Shown: one piece after another, positions 4,516-57,200 of the stretch
Layout of the letters: the number at the start of each line of letters is the position of its first letter
Position numbering within the stretch: position 1 is the stretch's first letter
Virus record (IMG/VR): IMGVR_UViG_3300008117_006248
Coordinates: 1 to 64,000 of that record
DNA: 64,000 bases
From: a virus
Direction: 5' to 3' (one strand)
Position numbers and translations under genes: made by a program
The notes under the pieces: generated by a model
Told to the model about the DNA's origin: nothing
The model's input: only the letters and a program-made list of their open reading frames with translations
Database searches by the model: none

Positions 4516-5202
4516 TTAGATTTGGCTTAGATTTTCTATGTTTTTCTTGTTTTTCCGAGACTTGGAGGAACTTTTTGTCTCACTAAGTGCGCCATAGATG
4601 AGACTAAATAACTCATAAACAGACTGCTTAGAAAAATGGCTCTCTTCAGGAGGCTTCGGAGATGTGTCTTGCCATTCTAAAACATAATCAGCGAGGGCTT
4701 CGACCTTTGGAGTATGAGTCGCTTCTTGATTGTTGACTGGGATTGAAAATGTTTTTTTGAAAGGGGATGCGCTTTCTATTTTATACTTTTTGACATGAAT
4801 TAAAATACCGCCATTTTTCTTTAACCAATAAACTTCATCGTTTTCATATTCAGCGTGTCTAATATCTGGAATGCAAATTATTCTTTCGTTTTTTGTTTTC
4901 TCGAACTTGGCTATGGCTTTAGAGATCTTGTCGGTCCAATGAGTGCCTCTGGTTTCAATGCGCTTAACTTTGCCATGAAAAACCAAAAAGTCTCGTATTT
5001 TACTCTTGTCTTCTCTTGAACAAATTATTGGGTCTATGCCGTAGAGAGACAAAAGAGCTTCTTTGCATTCTTCTTTAATAGAATCTGCCAAAGCAATTCT
5101 TTCAAATTCATAGCCCATTTCTTCGAACAACTCTCTAAGCATATTGCATAAAGAGTCTTTGCCGTCGCCAGCTAATCCTGATATTCCTATTAATTTATTC
5201 AT
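4516..5202 (-). CDS. Deoxynucleoside monophosphate kinase-like P-loop kinase
   Basis: The protein has 228 residues from the ATG that overlaps the upstream HNH stop as ATGA. Residues 3-15 form a P-loop, 'LIGISGLAGDGKDSL' (GxxGxGKD), typical of phage dNMP kinases such as T4 gp1. Later come an 'ICIPDIRHAEYENDEV' segment (strand, Asp, Arg, as in the family's 'DVRFENE' motif) and a 'GGILIHVKK' strand. The predicted reaction is dNMP + ATP to dNDP + ADP, feeding phage DNA synthesis with the dUTPase and ribonucleotide reductase of this window. The Ser/Pro-rich C-terminus is poorly conserved. An upstream in-frame TTG at 5220 exists, but the ATGA overlap is the better start. Confidence 0.75.
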   Translation of the reverse strand: MNKLIGISGLAGDGKDSLCNMLRELFEEMGYEFERIALADSIKEECKEALLSLYGIDPIICSREDKSKIRDFLVFHGKVKRIETRGTHWTDKISKAIAKFEKTKNERIICIPDIRHAEYENDEVYWLKKNGGILIHVKKYKIESASPFKKTFSIPVNNQEATHTPKVEALADYVLEWQDTSPKPPEESHFSKQSVYELFSLIYGALSETKSSSKSRKNKKNIENLSQI

Positions 5203-5810: not shown

Positions 5811-5816
5811 GCATTA

Positions 5817-5845
5817 AGTATGATTTTTTTTCTTATTAATGTCAA
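5817..5845 (-). promoter_or_regulatory. Sigma-70-type promoter for the HNH-kinase-Hsp20 operon
   Basis: Minus strand: TTGACA (5845-5840), 17-nt spacer, CATACT (5822-5817), then six bases and the ATG at 5810. The predicted transcription start coincides with the start codon. Confidence 0.7.
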
Positions 5846-5854
5846 GATTTTTTC

Positions 5855-5882
5855 TAGATTTTTTTAACGTTATTTTTAGAAT
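5855..5882 (+). promoter_or_regulatory. Possible leaderless promoter for the mini-collagen gene
   Basis: Plus strand: TAGATT (5855-5860), 16-nt spacer, TAGAAT (5877-5882), six bases, then ATG at 5889. The -35 box is weaker than in the other members, but the spacing is the same. It lies back to back with the HNH promoter. Confidence 0.45.
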
Positions 5883-5888
5883 GAATTG

Positions 5889-6044
5889 ATGAAGAAAAAT
5901 TCTACTTCTAAAAATGCTATAAAGAAGGCGGCTAAGAAGCCAACGTCTTCTGGCAACGCAGGTAACACAGGCAACACAGGTAATGTTGGCAAGGGAGGCC
6001 AGCCAGGAAGTTCTGGTAGCTCGGGCTCCGCTAAAAAGCGATAA
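5889..6044 (+). CDS. Mini collagen-like small protein
   Basis: The protein has 51 residues. A Lys-rich, likely cationic N-terminus (KKNSTSKNAIKKAAKKPTS) is followed by about nine uninterrupted Gly-X-Y triplets (GNA GNT GNT GNV GKG GQP GSS GSS GSA) and a basic tail, KKR. It is an isolated gene between two divergent or convergent early operons, followed within 6 nt by a perfect Rho-independent terminator, and a weak promoter with correct spacing lies upstream. The composition is close to the collagen-like tail fibre and to the Gly-Ser linkers of the giant virion protein. Nine triplets are too few for a stable helix by themselves, so a role as a nucleic-acid-binding or fibre-associated peptide is only a guess. 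Confidence 0.65.
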   Translation: MKKNSTSKNAIKKAAKKPTSSGNAGNTGNTGNVGKGGQPGSSGSSGSAKKR

Positions 6045-6049
6045 AACAC

Positions 6050-6075
6050 GGCGCGATGAAAATCGCGCCTTTTTT
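6050..6075 (+). terminator. Rho-independent terminator between convergent genes
   Basis: GGCGCGAT (6050-6057), a GAAA loop and ATCGCGCC (6062-6069) form a perfect 8-bp stem followed by TTTTTT on the plus strand. On the minus strand the same stem is followed by GTGTTTTATC, so it can also close the dUTPase operon. Confidence 0.92.
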
Positions 6076-6077
6076 AT

Positions 6078-6278
6078 TTAATAAATTAAGAAAGACTCGT
6101 CAGAGCAATCTTCCCAGTCTAAAGATTCAGAGGCTTTGGATTTTCTTTTGAATTGACTATAGCACACAGCGGCTCTTTGTTTTTGCTGCGGGAAATCCTT
6201 GTTCATTGTAGGATCCCCCATGCATTTTGATACAAACTCGCTTTGCTTTTCGTTCTTTCTAGGTTTAGGTAATGGCAT
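6078..6278 (-). CDS. Conserved small phage protein with a C-M...FP..QR.AVCY motif
   Basis: The protein has 66 residues. The N-terminal 45 residues follow a pattern seen in many phage genomes: 'MPLPKP', Glu-rich helix, 'FVSKCMGD', 'FPQQKQRAAVCYSQF'. The motif is often found as a free small protein or at the edge of prohead or portal-associated genes, and its function is unknown. Two Cys residues are part of the motif. The C-terminal 20 residues are acidic (LDWEDCSDES). It is the last gene of the dUTPase operon, ending just before the shared terminator. Confidence 0.65.
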   Translation of the reverse strand: MPLPKPRKNEKQSEFVSKCMGDPTMNKDFPQQKQRAAVCYSQFKRKSKASESLDWEDCSDESFLIY

Positions 6279-6293
6279 ATAATCGTATTACAC

Positions 6294-6473
6294 CTAATTA
6301 AGAGACCTAATATCAAAAATATCAACAGAAACTAAGGTATCTCCGTTTGATACAATGAACGTCTCCTCATCCTTTACGGCTGTAACCTCTCCGATCCACT
6401 CTCCTTCTGGATCTAAAATCTTTACAGTTTTGCCAATTAACCTTGAATTGATATCAAGTCTGGATTCTTTCAT
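6294..6473 (-). CDS. Short beta-rich protein, SH3/KOW-like
   Basis: The protein has 59 residues. Its pattern of short strands and turns ('RLIGKTVKILDPEGEWIGEVTAVKDEETFIVSNGDTLVSV') resembles a small SH3-like or KOW-like barrel, as in modulators that bind RNA or protein; this is inference from pattern only. The ATG at 6473 overlaps the stop of the upstream gene as ATGA, which supports it as a real translationally coupled gene. Fifteen nt separate its stop from the next gene. Confidence 0.6.
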   Translation of the reverse strand: MKESRLDINSRLIGKTVKILDPEGEWIGEVTAVKDEETFIVSNGDTLVSVDIFDIRSLN

Positions 6474-7518: not shown

Positions 7519-7546
7519 ATTATGCAGCTATAGTAAAAAAAGTCAA
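7519..7546 (-). promoter_or_regulatory. Sigma-70-type leaderless promoter for dut
   Basis: Minus strand: TTGACT (7546-7541), 16-nt spacer, CATAAT (7524-7519), six bases, then the GTG start codon at 7512. Transcription should begin at the G of GTG. Confidence 0.8.
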
Positions 7547-7588: not shown

Positions 7589-7996
7589 GTGAACATCATT
7601 GAATGTTATCAGCTACTCAACGAGTACTTCAACAGCCGCAGTTGCTTCAATCTAAAGAAAAATAGGAAAGAAGTGATTTTGGTGTCTGACGATGAACCAT
7701 CGGAAAACGCGGCGCTTGTCTGCGCTCTGAGAGAAATGGAAAAAGCCAATGTGCTTCGCTCATGCGTTCTAGACGGCGAAGAATATTGGGTTTTAGTGAA
7801 GTCTCTTGAGTCCTTTTCTCAGACGATAGAAGTAAGCGGGCTGGTAGCCGCTGGCATAGCTTCTATTATTAATAATATGTGCCAAGAGTTAAACAGCGAG
7901 TCAGAGAAGTGCGACGTTTTAAATATTACAGAAAAGGATTTAAAGAATTTAATTTATATCGCTTCTAAGGCCACTCCAGACTCGCTTAAGAAATGA
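7589..7996 (+). CDS. Hypothetical early protein
   Basis: The protein has 135 residues from a GTG start that sits five bases after a good -10 box. The N-terminal 75 residues (helix, 'RKEVILVSDDEPSENAALVCALREMEKANVL', then strands with Trp) have the look of a winged-helix-like or small alpha/beta domain. A Gly/Ala-rich helix follows (VSGLVAAGIASIINNMC), and the rest is acidic helices. No family is recognised. The gene stands alone between the dUTPase promoter and the structured-RNA region. A regulatory role is possible but unsupported. Confidence 0.6.
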   Translation: MNIIECYQLLNEYFNSRSCFNLKKNRKEVILVSDDEPSENAALVCALREMEKANVLRSCVLDGEEYWVLVKSLESFSQTIEVSGLVAAGIASIINNMCQELNSESEKCDVLNITEKDLKNLIYIASKATPDSLKK

Positions 7997-7997
7997 T

Positions 7998-8025
7998 TTG
8001 ACTTTTCCAGAAAACAGGTCATAGT
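7998..8025 (+). promoter_or_regulatory. Sigma-70-type promoter for the structured-RNA region
   Basis: TTGACT (7998-8003), 16-nt spacer, CATAGT (8020-8025), starting 2 nt after the stop of the previous gene. The box matches the early-promoter set, but here no start codon follows; the transcript would start near 8032 and run into the non-coding stretch. Confidence 0.75.
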
Positions 8026-8031
8026 CATCCA

Positions 8032-8468
8032 GACTGTTGTGCAGAGGTAACCTGAGCAAAACCATGCTCACTTAAGAATAAAATCTTATTTAAACTCGTA
8101 AGAGACAGCAAGCCCGTTGAAAGACGATAGGAAATTGGAGGAAACTCCAGCGTGCGTTCGGGAGAGGTCGCGTCGTAACTGAGTCCTATTTAAAACTACT
8201 AGAAACTTCATTCCTCTCAAAGGAAAAGGCGATGGTGGAACGTCTGAAAAAAAGTCGCTGCGCAAACAACAGTCTAGCATAGCCAAAAGTAGTCACTAGC
8301 TAAACGGACTCACTAAAGCCGGAGATGCGATGACTGATGTGGGTACTTTTGGGTGAATAATATCTTAGATAACAACATCTAAGCTGACCTACTATTGCTT
8401 AATAGCCAACTCAAGGAAAAGTTATAAGGCGATGGTGGAGAGGCAAAGTCTCTGTGGCAACACAGAGC
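8032..8468 (+). ncRNA. Putative large structured RNA (novel or unidentified class)
   Basis: No convincing gene lies in 7997-8484 on either strand. Instead there are many stems. TGAGC/GCTCA 8053-8070. ATAGGA 8127-8132 with TCCTAT 8184-8189, enclosing TGGAG-GAAA-CTCCA 8136-8149. TTCCT/AGGAA 8211-8225. AGTC-TAGC 8271-8278 with GCTA 8299-8302 and GACT 8307-8310. CTTAGAT/ATCTAAG 8364-8383. CTCTGTG-GCAA-CACAGAG 8450-8467. Two loops are GNRA tetraloops. A 12-nt motif, GGCGATGGTGGA, occurs twice exactly 200 nt apart (8228, 8428), each after AAGGAAAAG. A dedicated promoter lies just upstream. I could not match it to RNase P, tmRNA, group I or II intron cores; its size recalls large phage RNAs such as GOLLD or ROOL, but no identity is claimed. 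No terminator is seen, so it could also be the 5' leader of the sigma-like gene. Confidence 0.65.
8220..8439 (+). repeat. Direct repeat inside the putative RNA: AAGGAAAAG + GGCGATGGTGGA
   Basis: Copy 1 occupies 8220-8239 and copy 2 occupies 8413-8439. The 12-nt parts start at 8228 and 8428, exactly 200 nt apart; copy 2 has an extra TTATAA between its two parts. A third AAGGAAAAAG is at 8472-8481, just before the ATG of the sigma-like gene. Outside the motif the two copies diverge, which suggests a conserved functional element, not a recent duplication. Confidence 0.75.
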
Positions 8469-8484
8469 ATTAAGGAAAAAGTTT

Positions 8485-9093
8485 ATGTCTAAATCAAAAT
8501 CTATTAAAGATCTTGATCTTGTTTTAGTTAATAAGATCAAAGATAATAACTGCAACGACAGTTTCGAAAAATTATCAGGTTCTTACGATAATTTTTATTT
8601 CTCTATCGCAAGAAAATATTCTCAAGCATTAAACAGAATGGGAATGAGCAAAGAAGAGATAAAGTCTGAAAAAGATTTTATTCTTTACAAAGCAATTCAG
8701 TCTTTTGATGCGAAGCAGAAAACGAAGTTTTCAACTTGGTTTTGCAACTGTGCGAGATATCATTTTCTTAATTACATTAATTCAAACAAAAAATACATCT
8801 TGAACGAGGGTTTAGGTGTTGATGTTTATATTAATAAAGATATCTTAACTGTAACAGATAAGAATAATGATTTATTTGATTATTTGTCTTCTCTTCTTTC
8901 TTCTTTCAAAGATCCTAGAGTTAATGAGGTATATAAATTAAGGTATTTTTCTAACACGGCTAAACCTGTTACATGGAATAAGATCGCTAAAAAACTAAAT
9001 ATAAGCACACAGACAGCAATCAACCTGCACGAAAAGGCTAGAGTTTTCCTAAAAAACAAGATTCTTAGTAAAAATTCTTTCGATTTGGTTTGA
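8485..9093 (+). CDS. RNA polymerase sigma-70-like factor
   Basis: The protein has 202 residues. Residues about 10-95 follow sigma region 2: a helix with 'FEKLSGSYDNFYFSIARKYS', a 'KSEKDFILYKAIQSFDAKQKTKFSTWFCNCARYHF' core (region 2.2-2.4 pattern A...FD...KFSTW) and an Asn/Lys-rich end. Residues about 155-195 form a helix-turn-helix like region 4: 'VTWNKIAKKLNISTQTAINLHEKARVFL'. This two-domain layout is that of ECF or T4 gp55-type late sigma factors. It probably redirects host RNA polymerase to late promoters. It is the one gene here with a plausible Shine-Dalgarno sequence (AAGGA, 8 nt before ATG), and it lies directly after the putative structured RNA. Confidence 0.75.
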   Translation: MSKSKSIKDLDLVLVNKIKDNNCNDSFEKLSGSYDNFYFSIARKYSQALNRMGMSKEEIKSEKDFILYKAIQSFDAKQKTKFSTWFCNCARYHFLNYINSNKKYILNEGLGVDVYINKDILTVTDKNNDLFDYLSSLLSSFKDPRVNEVYKLRYFSNTAKPVTWNKIAKKLNISTQTAINLHEKARVFLKNKILSKNSFDLV

Positions 9094-9117
9094 CTTTTTG
9101 GTTTTTTGGGTCATAAT
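9090..9117 (+). promoter_or_regulatory. Sigma-70-type early promoter
   Basis: TTGACT (9090-9095) overlaps the stop codon of the sigma-like gene; a 16-nt spacer and CATAAT (9112-9117) follow. The ATG at 9127 lies nine bases after the -10 box, giving a leader of about 0-3 nt. Confidence 0.8.
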
Positions 9118-10559: not shown

Positions 10560-10934
10560 ATGCCAATTTATCTATTTAAGAACCCTAAAACCGGCAAAAT
10601 TGTTTCTGTTTTTCAGCAAATGAATGAAGAACATGTTCATTCTGAAGATGGAATTAAGTATGAAAGAGTCTTTACAGTACCTAACGCTCAAATTGATGCC
10701 GATATTGATGTTGATTCTTCTGAAAAGTTTATAGAAAAAACAGGAAAAATGAAAGGCACACTTGGAGAAATTTGGGACTACTCTCAAGAATTAAGTAACA
10801 AAAGAGCTGAAAAAAACGGTGGTATTGATCCTGTGCGTCAAAAAGCAGAAGAAAAATATTCCAAAAAGCGCAGGGGTATGAAATATAAAAACAAGATAAA
10901 CCCTTCGGAAATGCCCAAGATTCAGCTTGACTAA
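10560..10934 (+). CDS. FmdB-like small protein lacking zinc cysteines
   Basis: The protein has 124 residues. The start 'MPIYLFKNPKTGKIVSVFQ' mirrors the FmdB zinc-ribbon signature (MPIYEF.C..CG..FE), but the Cys residues are absent, so the fold would be kept without metal. The rest is charged and helical with a Lys-rich tail. FmdB-like proteins are frequent in phages, and their role is unclear. Start TAATATG follows the glycosyltransferase directly. Confidence 0.55.
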   Translation: MPIYLFKNPKTGKIVSVFQQMNEEHVHSEDGIKYERVFTVPNAQIDADIDVDSSEKFIEKTGKMKGTLGEIWDYSQELSNKRAEKNGGIDPVRQKAEEKYSKKRRGMKYKNKINPSEMPKIQLD

Positions 10935-10971
10935 TTCTATTTTCCGGGAATATTGTGTAAACCATCATCCT

Positions 10972-12942
10972 ATGAGCATTCTATCTAAAGATTTTATTTC
11001 AAAATATAAAGGCAAACAACCAAACTGGGGCTTCAATGGTTTGGGCTATGTTGTCTACAAAAGAACATACGCAAGACTCAAGGAAGATGGCTCTACCGAA
11101 GAGTGGCATGAAACTGTAGAGCGTTGCGTAAATGGGGCGCAAAAGATTGGCGCTGGATACACAGAAGAAGAGGCCGAAAGAATATATGATTATGTATTTA
11201 ATCTAAAGTGCAATTTTGCCGGAAGAATGCTTTGGCAGCTTGGTACATCTACAGTTGATCGCTTTGGGGCTAATTCATTGCTTAATTGCTGGGCTGTAGC
11301 AATGCGAGAGCCTAATGCATTTTTGTTTCTTTTTGAGAATCTGATGCTTGGTGGTGGCGTTGGTTATAGTATCCGAAGAGAAGATGTTCATGAGTTACCT
11401 AAAATAAAGAAAAGTGTAAAGGTTATTCATGAAGGCTCTAAAGATGCTGATTACATTGTCCCTGATAAGCGCGAAGGCTGGGTTAACTTGCTATCTAAAG
11501 TCTTGGATGCTTTTTATGTCACTGGCAAATCGTTTTCTTATTCGACCATTCTTATCAGAGGGTATGGAGAACCAATCAAAGGCTTTGGGGGAAAAGCTAG
11601 CGGCCCACAAGTCCTTATTGATGGAATCGATAAGATCACAAAAATTTTCCAGTCTAGAGAAGGCAAAAAACTTCGTTCGCTCGATGTTCTAGATATCTGC
11701 AATATAATTGGCAGCATTGTTGTCGCTGGTAATGTTCGTCGAAGTGCTGAAATCGCTCTTGGCGACCCTGACGACATTCTTTATTTGCGAGCAAAGAATT
11801 GGGGCACTGGCAATGTTCCAAACTGGAGAGCTATGAGCAATAATACTATTTATGCTGATAGCTACAGTCATGTTCTTGAAGAAATTTGGAAAAACGGCTA
11901 TGAAATAAACCCAGACAGCGGATACGCGAACGGAGAGCCTTATGGCTTTTTTAATCTACCGCTTTCTCAAAAATTCGGAAGAATTAAAGATGGCGACATT
12001 TCTCAAAACGCAATGTATCCGACAGATATAGATAATTGCGAAATGACCAATCCATGCGCTGAAATTAGCCTTTCTAATTATGAATGCTGCAATCTTTGCG
12101 AACTGTATTTAAATAATATCTCTAGTAAAGAAGAGCTTCTTGATTGCTCTCAGCTTCTTTATAAAACTCAAAAAGCAATAGCTTCTCTCCCTTTCATCCA
12201 TGAAGAAACTAATAAAATCGTTCACAAGAACATGCGCCTTGGCCTTGGCATTACTGGTGTATGTCAGTCTCTTGATAAGCTTTCTTGGCTTGATGATTGC
12301 TATGTTGCTCTTCGCGCTTTTGATAGGGCTTGGAGCAAGAAGCGCGGATGGCCTGAAAGCATTAAGCTCACGACTGTTAAACCCAGCGGCACATTAAGCT
12401 TGCTTGGCGGAGCTACCCCCGGAGTACATCCAGCATTTAGCCAATATTATATGCGCACAGTTCGCATGTCTAGTTCTGATGCGTTAGTTCAAATTTGTAA
12501 GGACATGGGTTATCATGTTGAGTTTCTTGTTAATTTTGACGGGACAGAAAACAGAGATACTGTTGTTGTTTATTTCCCATGCAAAACACCAGAAGGATCA
12601 ATCTTGGCTAAAGATATGGACGTTTTGAAGCAGCTTGACATGGTGAAAAAGCTTCAAACAGATTGGTCTGACAACGCCGTGTCCGTAACTGCTTATTATA
12701 AACCAGAAGAACTTGATTCATTAAAAGCTTGGCTTAAGGAAAATTACGAGCATAATGTAAAGAGCGTTAGCTTCTTGCTGTTTAAAAACCACGGATTTAA
12801 GCAGGCTCCCTATCAAGAGATTGACGAAGAAACATATTTGTTAGCTTCGTCTAAAGTTAAACCAATATCTTCTTTATCTATCAACAGCACTGAAATGCTA
12901 GATATGGCTGAGTGCGCTACTGGCGCTTGCCCAATCCGCTAA
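10972..12942 (+). CDS. nrdJ: Adenosylcobalamin-dependent (class II) ribonucleoside-triphosphate reductase
   Basis: The protein has 656 residues from the ATG at 10972 (an upstream in-frame TTG at 10927 lies inside the previous gene). The spacing of key residues matches the monomeric Lactobacillus enzyme: Cys106 in 'LLNCWAV', Cys362 and Glu364 in 'NPCAEISL', Cys373 eleven residues on, and the C-terminal redox pair Cys648/Cys653 in 'ECATGACPIR'. It reduces NTPs to dNTPs with a thiyl radical generated by coenzyme B12, so it needs cobalamin from the host. It is about 80 residues shorter than the Lactobacillus protein. A TTGACT at 10927-10932 could be a -35 box, but the -10 is poor. The symbol follows common class II use. 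Confidence 0.93.
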   Translation: MSILSKDFISKYKGKQPNWGFNGLGYVVYKRTYARLKEDGSTEEWHETVERCVNGAQKIGAGYTEEEAERIYDYVFNLKCNFAGRMLWQLGTSTVDRFGANSLLNCWAVAMREPNAFLFLFENLMLGGGVGYSIRREDVHELPKIKKSVKVIHEGSKDADYIVPDKREGWVNLLSKVLDAFYVTGKSFSYSTILIRGYGEPIKGFGGKASGPQVLIDGIDKITKIFQSREGKKLRSLDVLDICNIIGSIVVAGNVRRSAEIALGDPDDILYLRAKNWGTGNVPNWRAMSNNTIYADSYSHVLEEIWKNGYEINPDSGYANGEPYGFFNLPLSQKFGRIKDGDISQNAMYPTDIDNCEMTNPCAEISLSNYECCNLCELYLNNISSKEELLDCSQLLYKTQKAIASLPFIHEETNKIVHKNMRLGLGITGVCQSLDKLSWLDDCYVALRAFDRAWSKKRGWPESIKLTTVKPSGTLSLLGGATPGVHPAFSQYYMRTVRMSSSDALVQICKDMGYHVEFLVNFDGTENRDTVVVYFPCKTPEGSILAKDMDVLKQLDMVKKLQTDWSDNAVSVTAYYKPEELDSLKAWLKENYEHNVKSVSFLLFKNHGFKQAPYQEIDEETYLLASSKVKPISSLSINSTEMLDMAECATGACPIR

Positions 12943-54200: not shown

Positions 54201-57200
54201 AATTATAAACTCCTAGATCCACATTTCTTTGACTAACATCTGGTATAACATATGAAAAACTATTAATTCCAGAAGGCTCCGATCTTAAGAATGTCAGTTT
54301 GTTGTTTCTATCTTTCTGATATATATTGTAATAACCACATCCAGCAACCTCATTCCAATCTACCTTAATCGGCAAAAAGTTTGTTTTTTTGATTACATTC
54401 GCTGAGTCAGAAGAAACTACTAATTTTTCTTGCTTAAAAATCCTAAATTCGTAATTCGCATCGTCTAAGAAAAGTGGCAAATTAGTCTTGAAAGCCACCA
54501 TTGATAAATAATTTGGCGTCTCTAAGTCCTCTGCTGAAAAATAATAAGGAGATATCGCCGAATATTCCGCTGAAATAATATCTTTCGAGAACCCAACGTC
54601 TTTCGACATCGTTGTCCACCCAGTAGAAGCCCCAGGGCCAGAAGATCCAGACGATCCAGAAGATCCAGCAGGTGCAGTTTTTAACTTGTATTGCAAATCA
54701 TACTCCCATCCATAATTAAAATTTATGGAATATGGAGATCCAGCATCGCCTATTAAAACTAAGTCCTTAGTATAAAAGTTATATTTTACTTTAGTTATCT
54801 GAAGCCTTCTTGTGTTCCTGAATCGCCCCTTGCCGTCTAGCACTTCTGTTGAAGGCCTTAATTTTGTTATGTAGCCATTTTCTAGTGTTTCTAAGACATA
54901 ATTTGATTCGTATTTTTTAGAAGTTTCGTTTTCTTCTTTTATGTAAATATGATTTTCAAACAATCCGTCGCTTAAAGCGTTTATAGAAGATGTCGTGATT
55001 GGTTTGCCCTCATAGTTTTTAGAGGTATAAGAGCCATTCGGGAAAAAGAATAATGTCGAAAGAAGTTCTTTGGTTTCTTCTTTATCGTCTTGAAAAAATC
55101 TAGGTTCAGAGAAATTAGAAGAATCTCTTGAGCCGTAGATATTATTATTTATTGGATTTTGATTAAAAAGTGTCCATTGATGATTTTCTAAATTTGCTAC
55201 TACTTTATAATTATATGTTTGTATATTAATTCTAACTTTGGAAGGATCTAAAAGTGAACCAGAGTTATTTGCTATTGTGGTATTAATATATGATTTTGTT
55301 ATCTTTGCATCGCCTTCGTTTTCTTCTTGTTGAAAAACTGAATTTGTTAGTCCTTGTTTTATAAACTTCAAAACCACCAAATTTGAGAAAGACGCAGAAG
55401 TGGCAGATTCGCCGTTTTGCACATTACTCTTTATAAAAGACAGCGGAGCAGAAGAACTATTATATCCATATAAATGATAAGAATAAGATTTTGTATCTTG
55501 GTTCGATATTGTTATATTTGATGGAGGGGCGGCAGTCGCAGACCAAGCTCTAAAATTCGAAGTATCATCATAGCTAAAGCTGTTGCCAGTCACATATTCA
55601 ATTCTGAACAATTTTTCCACTTCAATATCTTGGTCTTTGAACGATACTGCCCCGAAATTTTCGCCTGTCTGATAAGATAAACTGGCGGCAGAATTTTCCA
55701 AAAATCTTCTAAAAGACACTTCTTCATTGTAATCTTGCGCTGGATAGTAGTAATTTTGTTTACTTATTGTAAAACTATTAGCTTCGTATGGCTCATATGT
55801 TTGAACGCAGTAGAGTTTTTCGACCTCTTCAGCCGCTAAATCTGCGTCTCCCGGCGTATAAACTCCGCTTAAAATAGCTTGGTTAAGCTCAAATGCTTCG
55901 TTTGCTTTGTAAGACTTGGTGTATATTTCTCTTTCTACAAACACCCTAGGAGCTTTCGCGGTATTAGAACTAAAAGAATTCACTCCATCTGCGATAGCCG
56001 GGCCGCCTATTCTCTCATTTACATCTCGCAAAGCTTGAGAAAACAAAGTATTATAACTATTTTCTGATAAAGAAGGATAAACATTAAAAGATGCTACATA
56101 ATTTTTAGTATAAAAATAATTAACCGCTTTAAGCCAAGACTCTTGATTTACGTAATTATTTTTTGTTATTACCCCATCGCTTTGTATTTGAGTAACTGAA
56201 CCGTTTTGTATTTTTAAACCGTCTGAAGCGTATCTGTTGTTATCAAAAAGCGCTGTGTCTCCCTTGCAAAGTCCTGTAGCGTCTATAAAATAGCCATCAC
56301 AAGTAGAGTTTACTACAGTTCTAAAAACAGGCTCTGAAGCAGTCGAATTTTTATCTTCATTAATATAATAAGCCAAAACCCCGAACTGATCTCCACAAGA
56401 CACAAAAGTAGGGCTTAATCCATAGTTTGACAGAGGAGTAACTATGTAACTTTCTCCGGTATTTAGATAATTTGAATAGAAGTCTCTAGTTATTATTTTT
56501 TTAGGAAGAGGAAAATTCGGCAAAGCTGTTTTATAAACAGGCATTTCATTATTTGCTTCCGTTAGCAAGTCTTGATCATTTTGGTCTATTTCAGCTCTGG
56601 TTTCCCAAGCCTCAGTATTTTCTGCCCTAGAATCCTCTTCTCCAAAATCATCGTTATAAGCTTTAGCTAAAGCATCAAAATTATCCTGTATTGTTTTAGC
56701 CAATTGACTTTGGTCTTCTTCGTCTCCTGCTTCTGGAATTTGTATATCTTGAGCGTATTTTTCTGATTCATTTAATTGCTCTACGTCAATCAAATCTTGA
56801 ACGTTTTCATATCCGAATGGCTCACCATCTTCGCTTATTCTTGGATAAACTGCGCCACCTGCATTTAATGATATATTAACAGCACCAGCTCCTAGATTAT
56901 AACTTGACATGACATACCCAGAAACCGCTGGTTTTTCTCTTGTGTTATATCTTTCTACTTGGACATCTAATTTATAAATTTCTTCTGTATCGCCAGTAGT
57001 TAGGAGAATAAACTTAAACAAGTTATCGCTTTTGCTTAATTTGAATCCAGTGAAGAATGAGTCGTTCTTGATTTCTCTTGTTTTTATTTTGTCTGTATCT
57101 AATATATTTTGGAACTCTTCTTTAGTGAAAGAAATCTCTGTCACAGGTTCAAATGCATAACTTATTTGGCCATCTATTACTCCAGAGACCTCTTCCTTGT

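Follow-up and report, generated by a model that had tools for sequence, protein, structure and literature searches.

What fills the long gene-free gap ahead of a sigma-factor-like gene in this viral genome, and what could it do for the phage? In the window, meaning the whole stretch of 64,000 nt that was analysed, the 488 nt at 7997-8484 contain no recognisable gene. They lie between a forward-strand gene at 7589-7996 with no family match and the ATG at 8485 of the sigma-factor-like gene (8485-9093, forward strand; Sigma70_r2, 7.9e-6; phrog_351, 1.7e-10). Five stretches of at least 150 nt in the window carry no ORF of at least 70 aa on either strand; this one ranks second in length and no other lies right of 6469, which agrees with the gene-free gap reported in an earlier note on this DNA; a 66-aa ORF on the reverse strand lies inside it at 8086-8286. 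The largest ORF-poor gap, at 5811-6469, holds a small collagen-like ORF with glycine-rich repeats (GNAGNTGNTGNVG...) at 5886-6044 on the forward strand, and a B12-dependent (class II) ribonucleotide reductase is encoded at 10927-12942 on the same strand, near the sigma gene.

The earlier note proposed that the gap holds a large structured RNA, and the segment 8031-8439 (forward strand), from the 5' strand of helix P1 to the end of a repeated element termed box 2, very likely belongs to a new family of large structured phage RNA. The assignment rests on relatives and covariation, and the true ends of the molecule are undetermined. The family has 28 distinct full or near-full RNAs and two fragments (L067 and L119) in 40 viral records, a count taken from the listed contigs that includes the window's own record and both fragments. 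Members are roughly 410-450 nt long; the window member has about 410 bases and is the single copy in its own record. A search with the sigma protein gave 21 loci, in which the RNA is identical over 454 nt in L002-L005 and diverged in L006-L012. An alignment of the sigma proteins led to 72 loci, and blastn found fragments of the RNA in distant phages, mostly not beside a sigma gene. Pattern scans and profile searches enlarged the set to the 28 RNAs and two fragments. The final pattern scan returned 17 stretches, three from records already known, and two of the other 14 were genuine (L153 and L164, which carry the same RNA). The model R1, run on 48 whole records, gave eight strong matches, all in records already known as carriers; 37 of the remaining 40 records, which may be fragments, had no match and three had weak ones (E 0.027-0.037) that were not counted. 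In the most divergent relative, L008, an extra AT-rich stretch with GAAACTT-like repeats (about 4650-5000) lies between the RNA and the sigma gene.

Outside this set, two exact patterns had no match among bacteria, sampled as a single genome per species (84,980 species), a search that divergent copies would escape. The window RNA had no blastn match in 50,697 phage records, the relative L048 gave just one chance-like match of 27 bases, in a microvirus, and the RNA was not found in plasmid records at the sensitivity used. A literature search of limited scope brought up no paper recognised as describing this family. That the family exists is nearly certain, which cannot be said of its function.

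Known RNA classes do not account for the family. At gathering level Rfam 15 found nothing in the whole window and nothing except tRNAs in the loci of eight relatives. At E<=10, a search of window 7900-8600 gave only ceN108 in the RNA region (E 0.19; 19.7 bits, where the gathering score is 50), along with mir-2208 on the opposite strand within the next gene, and a search of L048 1880-2345 gave only AHBV_epsilon, on the opposite strand (E 5.1). The GOLLD and ROOL covariance models were unmatched in these searches (window and eight relatives at gathering level, window RNA and L048 at E<=10), as were the Rfam models for OLE and HEARO, and those for group I and group II introns at both levels. ARAGORN detected neither tRNA nor tmRNA in the window, and RNase P RNA, tmRNA and the Rfam riboswitches were unmatched there by Rfam and ARAGORN. 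The Rfam check that the earlier note proposed has thus found no known class, and its remark that the RNA is of no recognisable class stands, with no credible match for the window or its relatives. It also left a choice between a member of GOLLD or ROOL and a new class; the new class is the better of the two.

In setting and complexity the RNA is nevertheless like GOLLD and ROOL, while matching neither Rfam model. ROOL is about 580 nt long, so that the present RNA is shorter, and the ROOL model is unmatched here. What the two have in common, as far as the available part of PMC12286853 describes ROOL, is an ornate RNA of phages or prophages that contains several pseudoknots and for which no protein partner is known. 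Like GOLLD, this is a large phage noncoding RNA of undetermined function that sometimes lies near tRNA genes: a tRNA-Gly directly follows it in L013, and tRNAs lie about 4-5 kb away in L009, L110, L111 and L117, which makes five of the 24 RNA-bearing loci scanned, adjacent in one, with stretches of unequal length. ROOL is found in phages or prophages, often close to tRNA islands; all 40 records of the present family are viral, but the tRNA counts from such unequal stretches do not decide whether its setting is that of ROOL. Unlike GOLLD, many members of which exceed 800 nt according to the portion of PMC12286853 at hand, it measures about 410-450 nt and does not match the GOLLD model. OLE is likewise a large, conserved and complex RNA, and one that can dimerise, but it occurs mainly in extremophilic bacteria (both points from the same portion of PMC12286853), and the Rfam OLE model is unmatched here. 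The most abundant transcript of phage ICP1 also comes from ORF-free space, and its authors draw a comparison with GOLLD and ROOL (accessible part of PMC7567579); it resembles the present RNA as a phage RNA from an ORF-free gap and differs in its length of about 800 nt, and the sequences were not directly compared.

A translated product, which would have refuted the proposal of a structured RNA, is not supported either. In 26 RNAs even the longest ORFs are short, and by eye they do not resemble one another; no ORF is common to the relatives. Small peptides starting from an ATG within each box were excluded by eye, the frames being broken in L007 and others. The comparisons show that evolution keeps the fold of this RNA, not a protein.

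The RNA may be transcribed from its own promoter-like site, an inference made without expression data. The site, TTGACT-16-CATAGT at 7998-8025 (forward strand), has 9 of 12 matches. Sites of this 9/12 type number eight in 2 kb against 5.2 +/- 2.1 expected, so that it is unremarkable in a single sequence, and the best upstream sites of 27 relatives have a mean of 8.6 against 7.7 in shuffled upstream DNA (18% of shuffles reach 9). The "clean early promoter" of the earlier note is therefore a promoter-like site that does exist, but on these counts and scores "clean" is an overstatement. Three TTGACT-16-CATAAT/CATAGT sites, at 7519-7546 (reverse strand), 7998-8025 (forward) and 9090-9117 (forward), lie near gene or RNA starts and are possibly one promoter class of the phage.

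The fold is supported first by its stability. Folded as a single sequence, the RNA reaches a minimum free energy of -126.4 kcal/mol, whereas shuffles average -107.4 +/- 6.8 (z -2.79) and one in 100 does as well, which bears out the description of the region as rich in perfect stems. Both reported stems with GNRA loops exist, TGGAG-GAAA-CTCCA at 8136-8149 and CTCTGTG-GCAA-CACAGAG at 8450-8467, but only the first falls within the conserved RNA; the other is 3' of it and has not been maintained among the more distant relatives. Covariation is the stronger evidence. In two MAFFT alignments of 26 RNAs each, made without structure input (A2 and A3), standard pairs fill 90.8% of cells in one and 93.3% in the other, both partners change in 22 of 30 and 13 of 17 pairs, and on both alignments the covariation score was reached by none of 500 shuffles. 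When partners are slid by one to three columns, pairing falls below 49%, a lenient control because the helices were picked by eye on the same sequences. A stricter null simulated columns independently along a FastTree tree, 1000 times. It took in 25 RNAs because of omitted rows: the fragments L067 and L119 are absent from all alignments, the very divergent L008 from A2, L124 from A3 and L153 from both.

Under this tree null no simulation reached the observed covariation of P3, P4, P5, P6 or P8. P3 (8127-8132 with 8184-8189) encloses both the P4 hairpin with its GAAA loop (8136-8140 with 8145-8149) and P5 (8150-8153 with 8170-8173); the window's own P3 pairs were read by eye because its group is offset from the others there in A2. 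P8 pairs CCAAAAGUA at 8283-8291 with UACUUUUGG at 8344-8352 and has changes on both sides in eight of nine pairs. PK2 (AGUCG at 8253-8257 with UGACU at 8331-8335) was reached by 4/1000 simulations, with 99.2% of cells paired and both-side changes in three of five pairs, and P7, a UUCC/GGAA hairpin just before box 1 (8211-8225), by 6/1000. Weaker are the short helix P9 (9/1000) and PK1 (CCCG at 8113-8116 with CGGG at 8159-8162; 24/1000), neither of which is significant by percentage paired (244/1000 and 112/1000). PK1 barely varies; its C-G to U-A change occurs in L014 and L020 and by eye in L008 and L153, both outside the tree test. P1, which joins AGACUGUUG at 8031-8039 to CAACAGUCU at 8267-8275, was tested by permutation of partners in 26 RNAs: cognate duplexes have a mean of -10.05 kcal/mol against -7.68 +/- 0.37 for permuted ones (0/5000), with relatedness ignored. 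In that test the middle stretch of L118 was cut overlong, and the best duplex of L008 used a different 5' strand from the one chosen by eye. All these elements lie on the forward strand. P1, PK2 and P8 interleave, and therefore the fold is knotted: the long-range pairs anticipated by the earlier note are real but pseudoknotted rather than merely nested, and the covariation check it called for finds pairing that covaries across relatives.

A striking feature of the family, not picked up by the earlier note, is a box of 12-17 nt that is present twice, about 200 nt apart. In the window both copies read AAGGCGATGGTGGA (box 1 at 8226-8239, box 2 at 8426-8439, both forward), each preceded by a similar purine-rich lead; other members carry pairs such as AAAGGATAAGCAGTCA, AAAGGCTGACAGTCAA, AAGCTGGCAGTTC, AAAAGACTAGTGGTC and GGAAGGAAGAAGTTAAA. 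The copies are identical within 12 of 13 representatives and differ between phages. The run common to box 1 and box 2 averages 14.4 nt within and 6.2 nt between RNAs (0/50000 permutations, 12 representatives), or 13.8 and 6.1 nt with 13 representatives, where the largest permuted mean was 11.2. The exception is L153, with a run of 6, box ends alike and middles different; in L008 the boxes have only 8 nt in common. In L014, L020, L070 and L117 the copies differ beside the common run, L070 and L117 by small differences after AAGGATAAGCAGT. The 11, 12 or 13 representatives of the box tests were chosen to span box types, with L008 excluded; seven RNAs initially unparsed in the box listing were later shown to have both boxes, and L014 and L020 were cut wrongly there. 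Permutation tests on P1, the boxes and the strands S and S' described below ignore relatedness, except for a set of nine more independent RNAs.

Boxes also tend to pair with themselves. Across 12 boxes self-complementarity averages -7.0 kcal/mol against -3.8 for their own shuffles (0/2000, relatedness ignored). It is clear in L013 (0.0045) and L124 (0.0145) and no better than shuffles in L048, which represents the largest group (0.44), or L118 (0.20). The self-pairs include G-U, which points to contacts of RNA and not DNA. In a scan for partners the best partner of the box was the box itself, a comparison biased to self, and strand S came eleventh of 103 windows.

Strand S (GACCUACUAUUGCUU, 8386-8400, forward) lies 5' of box 2 and is the proposed partner of the box, and the 5' part of strand S' (ACUACUAGAAACUU, 8195-8208, forward) is common with S within an RNA, a likeness equalled by 132/50000 permutations. 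S fits its own box 1 better than those of other RNAs at 1251/50000 (13 representatives), 1509/50000 (nine more independent RNAs), 746/20000 (11 representatives) and 4657/50000 (12 representatives), a signal that would fail correction for the four combinations tried. The other three were not significant, either with 13 representatives (S-box 2 9512, S'-box 1 25731, S'-box 2 3293 of 50000) or with the nine independent RNAs (9866, 14591 and 2669 of 50000). In L153, where the boxes differ, S fits box 1 at -17.4 and box 2 at -9.2 kcal/mol; the S'-box 2 pairing of L153 is not relied on because S' was cut by position and overlaps P3. Local hairpins joining S or S' to the adjacent box were also considered, and permutation tests did not support them.

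The reading preferred here, to which we give a probability of only about 0.4, is that this is a structural noncoding RNA whose copies bind one another, with boxes that exchange pairing partners. Strand S would normally pair with box 1 and close the 3' domain, and box 2 would let the same S contact form with a neighbouring molecule, a domain swap that may yield homo-oligomers. Selection for interchangeable boxes would then explain why they change jointly between phages. The swap is read from the box and S pairing data and from analogy with GOLLD, ROOL and OLE; there are no data on size or oligomers, and the statistical support is weak. According to the part of PMC12286853 available, these three RNAs form RNA-only homo-oligomers, and symmetric loops of OLE and GOLLD switch between palindromes. 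A bolder version is possible but doubtful: the family would be a new class that self-assembles through two interchangeable box copies, and the box, changing as a whole, would confer specificity, so that the RNA of each phage recognises its own kind alone.

Two rivals remain live, although each is unlikely on its own. In the first, the RNA would be a two-state switch whose boxes compete for S (or S') and so alter its 3' end and downstream expression. In the window 45 nt separate the end of box 2 from the sigma ATG, and no terminator turned up between the RNA and that gene, so that it could still be a leader; the likely ribosome-binding site of L009 and L011 is, by eye, covered by a short inverted repeat at the start codon. 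Against this, relatives do not conserve the hairpin ahead of the ATG, and the downstream gene varies: when three proteins are located by tblastn, the nearest downstream is sigma at 8 of 27 loci, a putative P-loop gene (so labelled from its GxxGxGKD motif) at 18, and neither within the retrieved DNA at one, and in L013 the tRNA-Gly intervenes before the P-loop gene. The RNA is therefore not simply a sigma leader, and a general role of that kind is rejected. On the other side of the RNA, tblastn places a relative of the upstream gene no more than 1.4 kb away at 24 of the 27 loci, and adjacency is not constant.

The second live rival would make the RNA a scaffold that offers a pair of identical binding sites to a single protein of phage or host, and the box would change as the specificity of that protein changes. 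The identical boxes behind similar purine-rich leads and their joint change would suit such a role equally; no partner protein has been identified, and the partial co-change of S and S' hints at RNA pairing instead. An intron- or ribozyme-like element that cuts or joins at the boxes and releases the 3' domain is very unlikely: the boxes do flank that domain and the core is pseudoknotted, but neither the window RNA nor L048 has an Rfam intron or ribozyme match at E<=10. Least probable of all is an antisense RNA whose boxes act as a pair of identical seeds against some target in phage or host. The box is short and duplicated, and its own record has one-mismatch complements of the 12-nt core at three places, where conservation is not established, but no exact complement. 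The window has no third exact copy of the box, only a two-mismatch match at 54739 on the opposite strand. A sequence one mismatch from the box core, AGGCGATGCTGG, occurs far from the RNA at window 54740-54751 and at 65660-65671 of the own record, both on the reverse strand.

Related loci also lack the RNA or hold another one. In L045, L062 and L104 the upstream gene is by eye followed directly by the P-loop gene with no RNA between; these records, which may be fragments, had no R1 match. A second, different, structured-looking conserved RNA of about 300 nt occurs at L080 1620-1935. In L080 and L094 it directly precedes the P-loop gene, and blastn matches it in L074, L081, L089 and L100; it had no Rfam match (L080, L094) and no phage match, and has the motif CTCAGGGAAAAG in common with L009 of the present family.

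Few large ornate RNAs are known, and in the parts of PMC7567579 and PMC12286853 available GOLLD and ROOL are given no function. The present RNA is compact, occurs in 40 viral records and comes with a natural experiment in the form of co-changing paired boxes. Related phages without the RNA at this site, or with a different RNA there, permit comparison. If the boxes set pairing partners, RNA self-recognition would be directly testable by box swaps.
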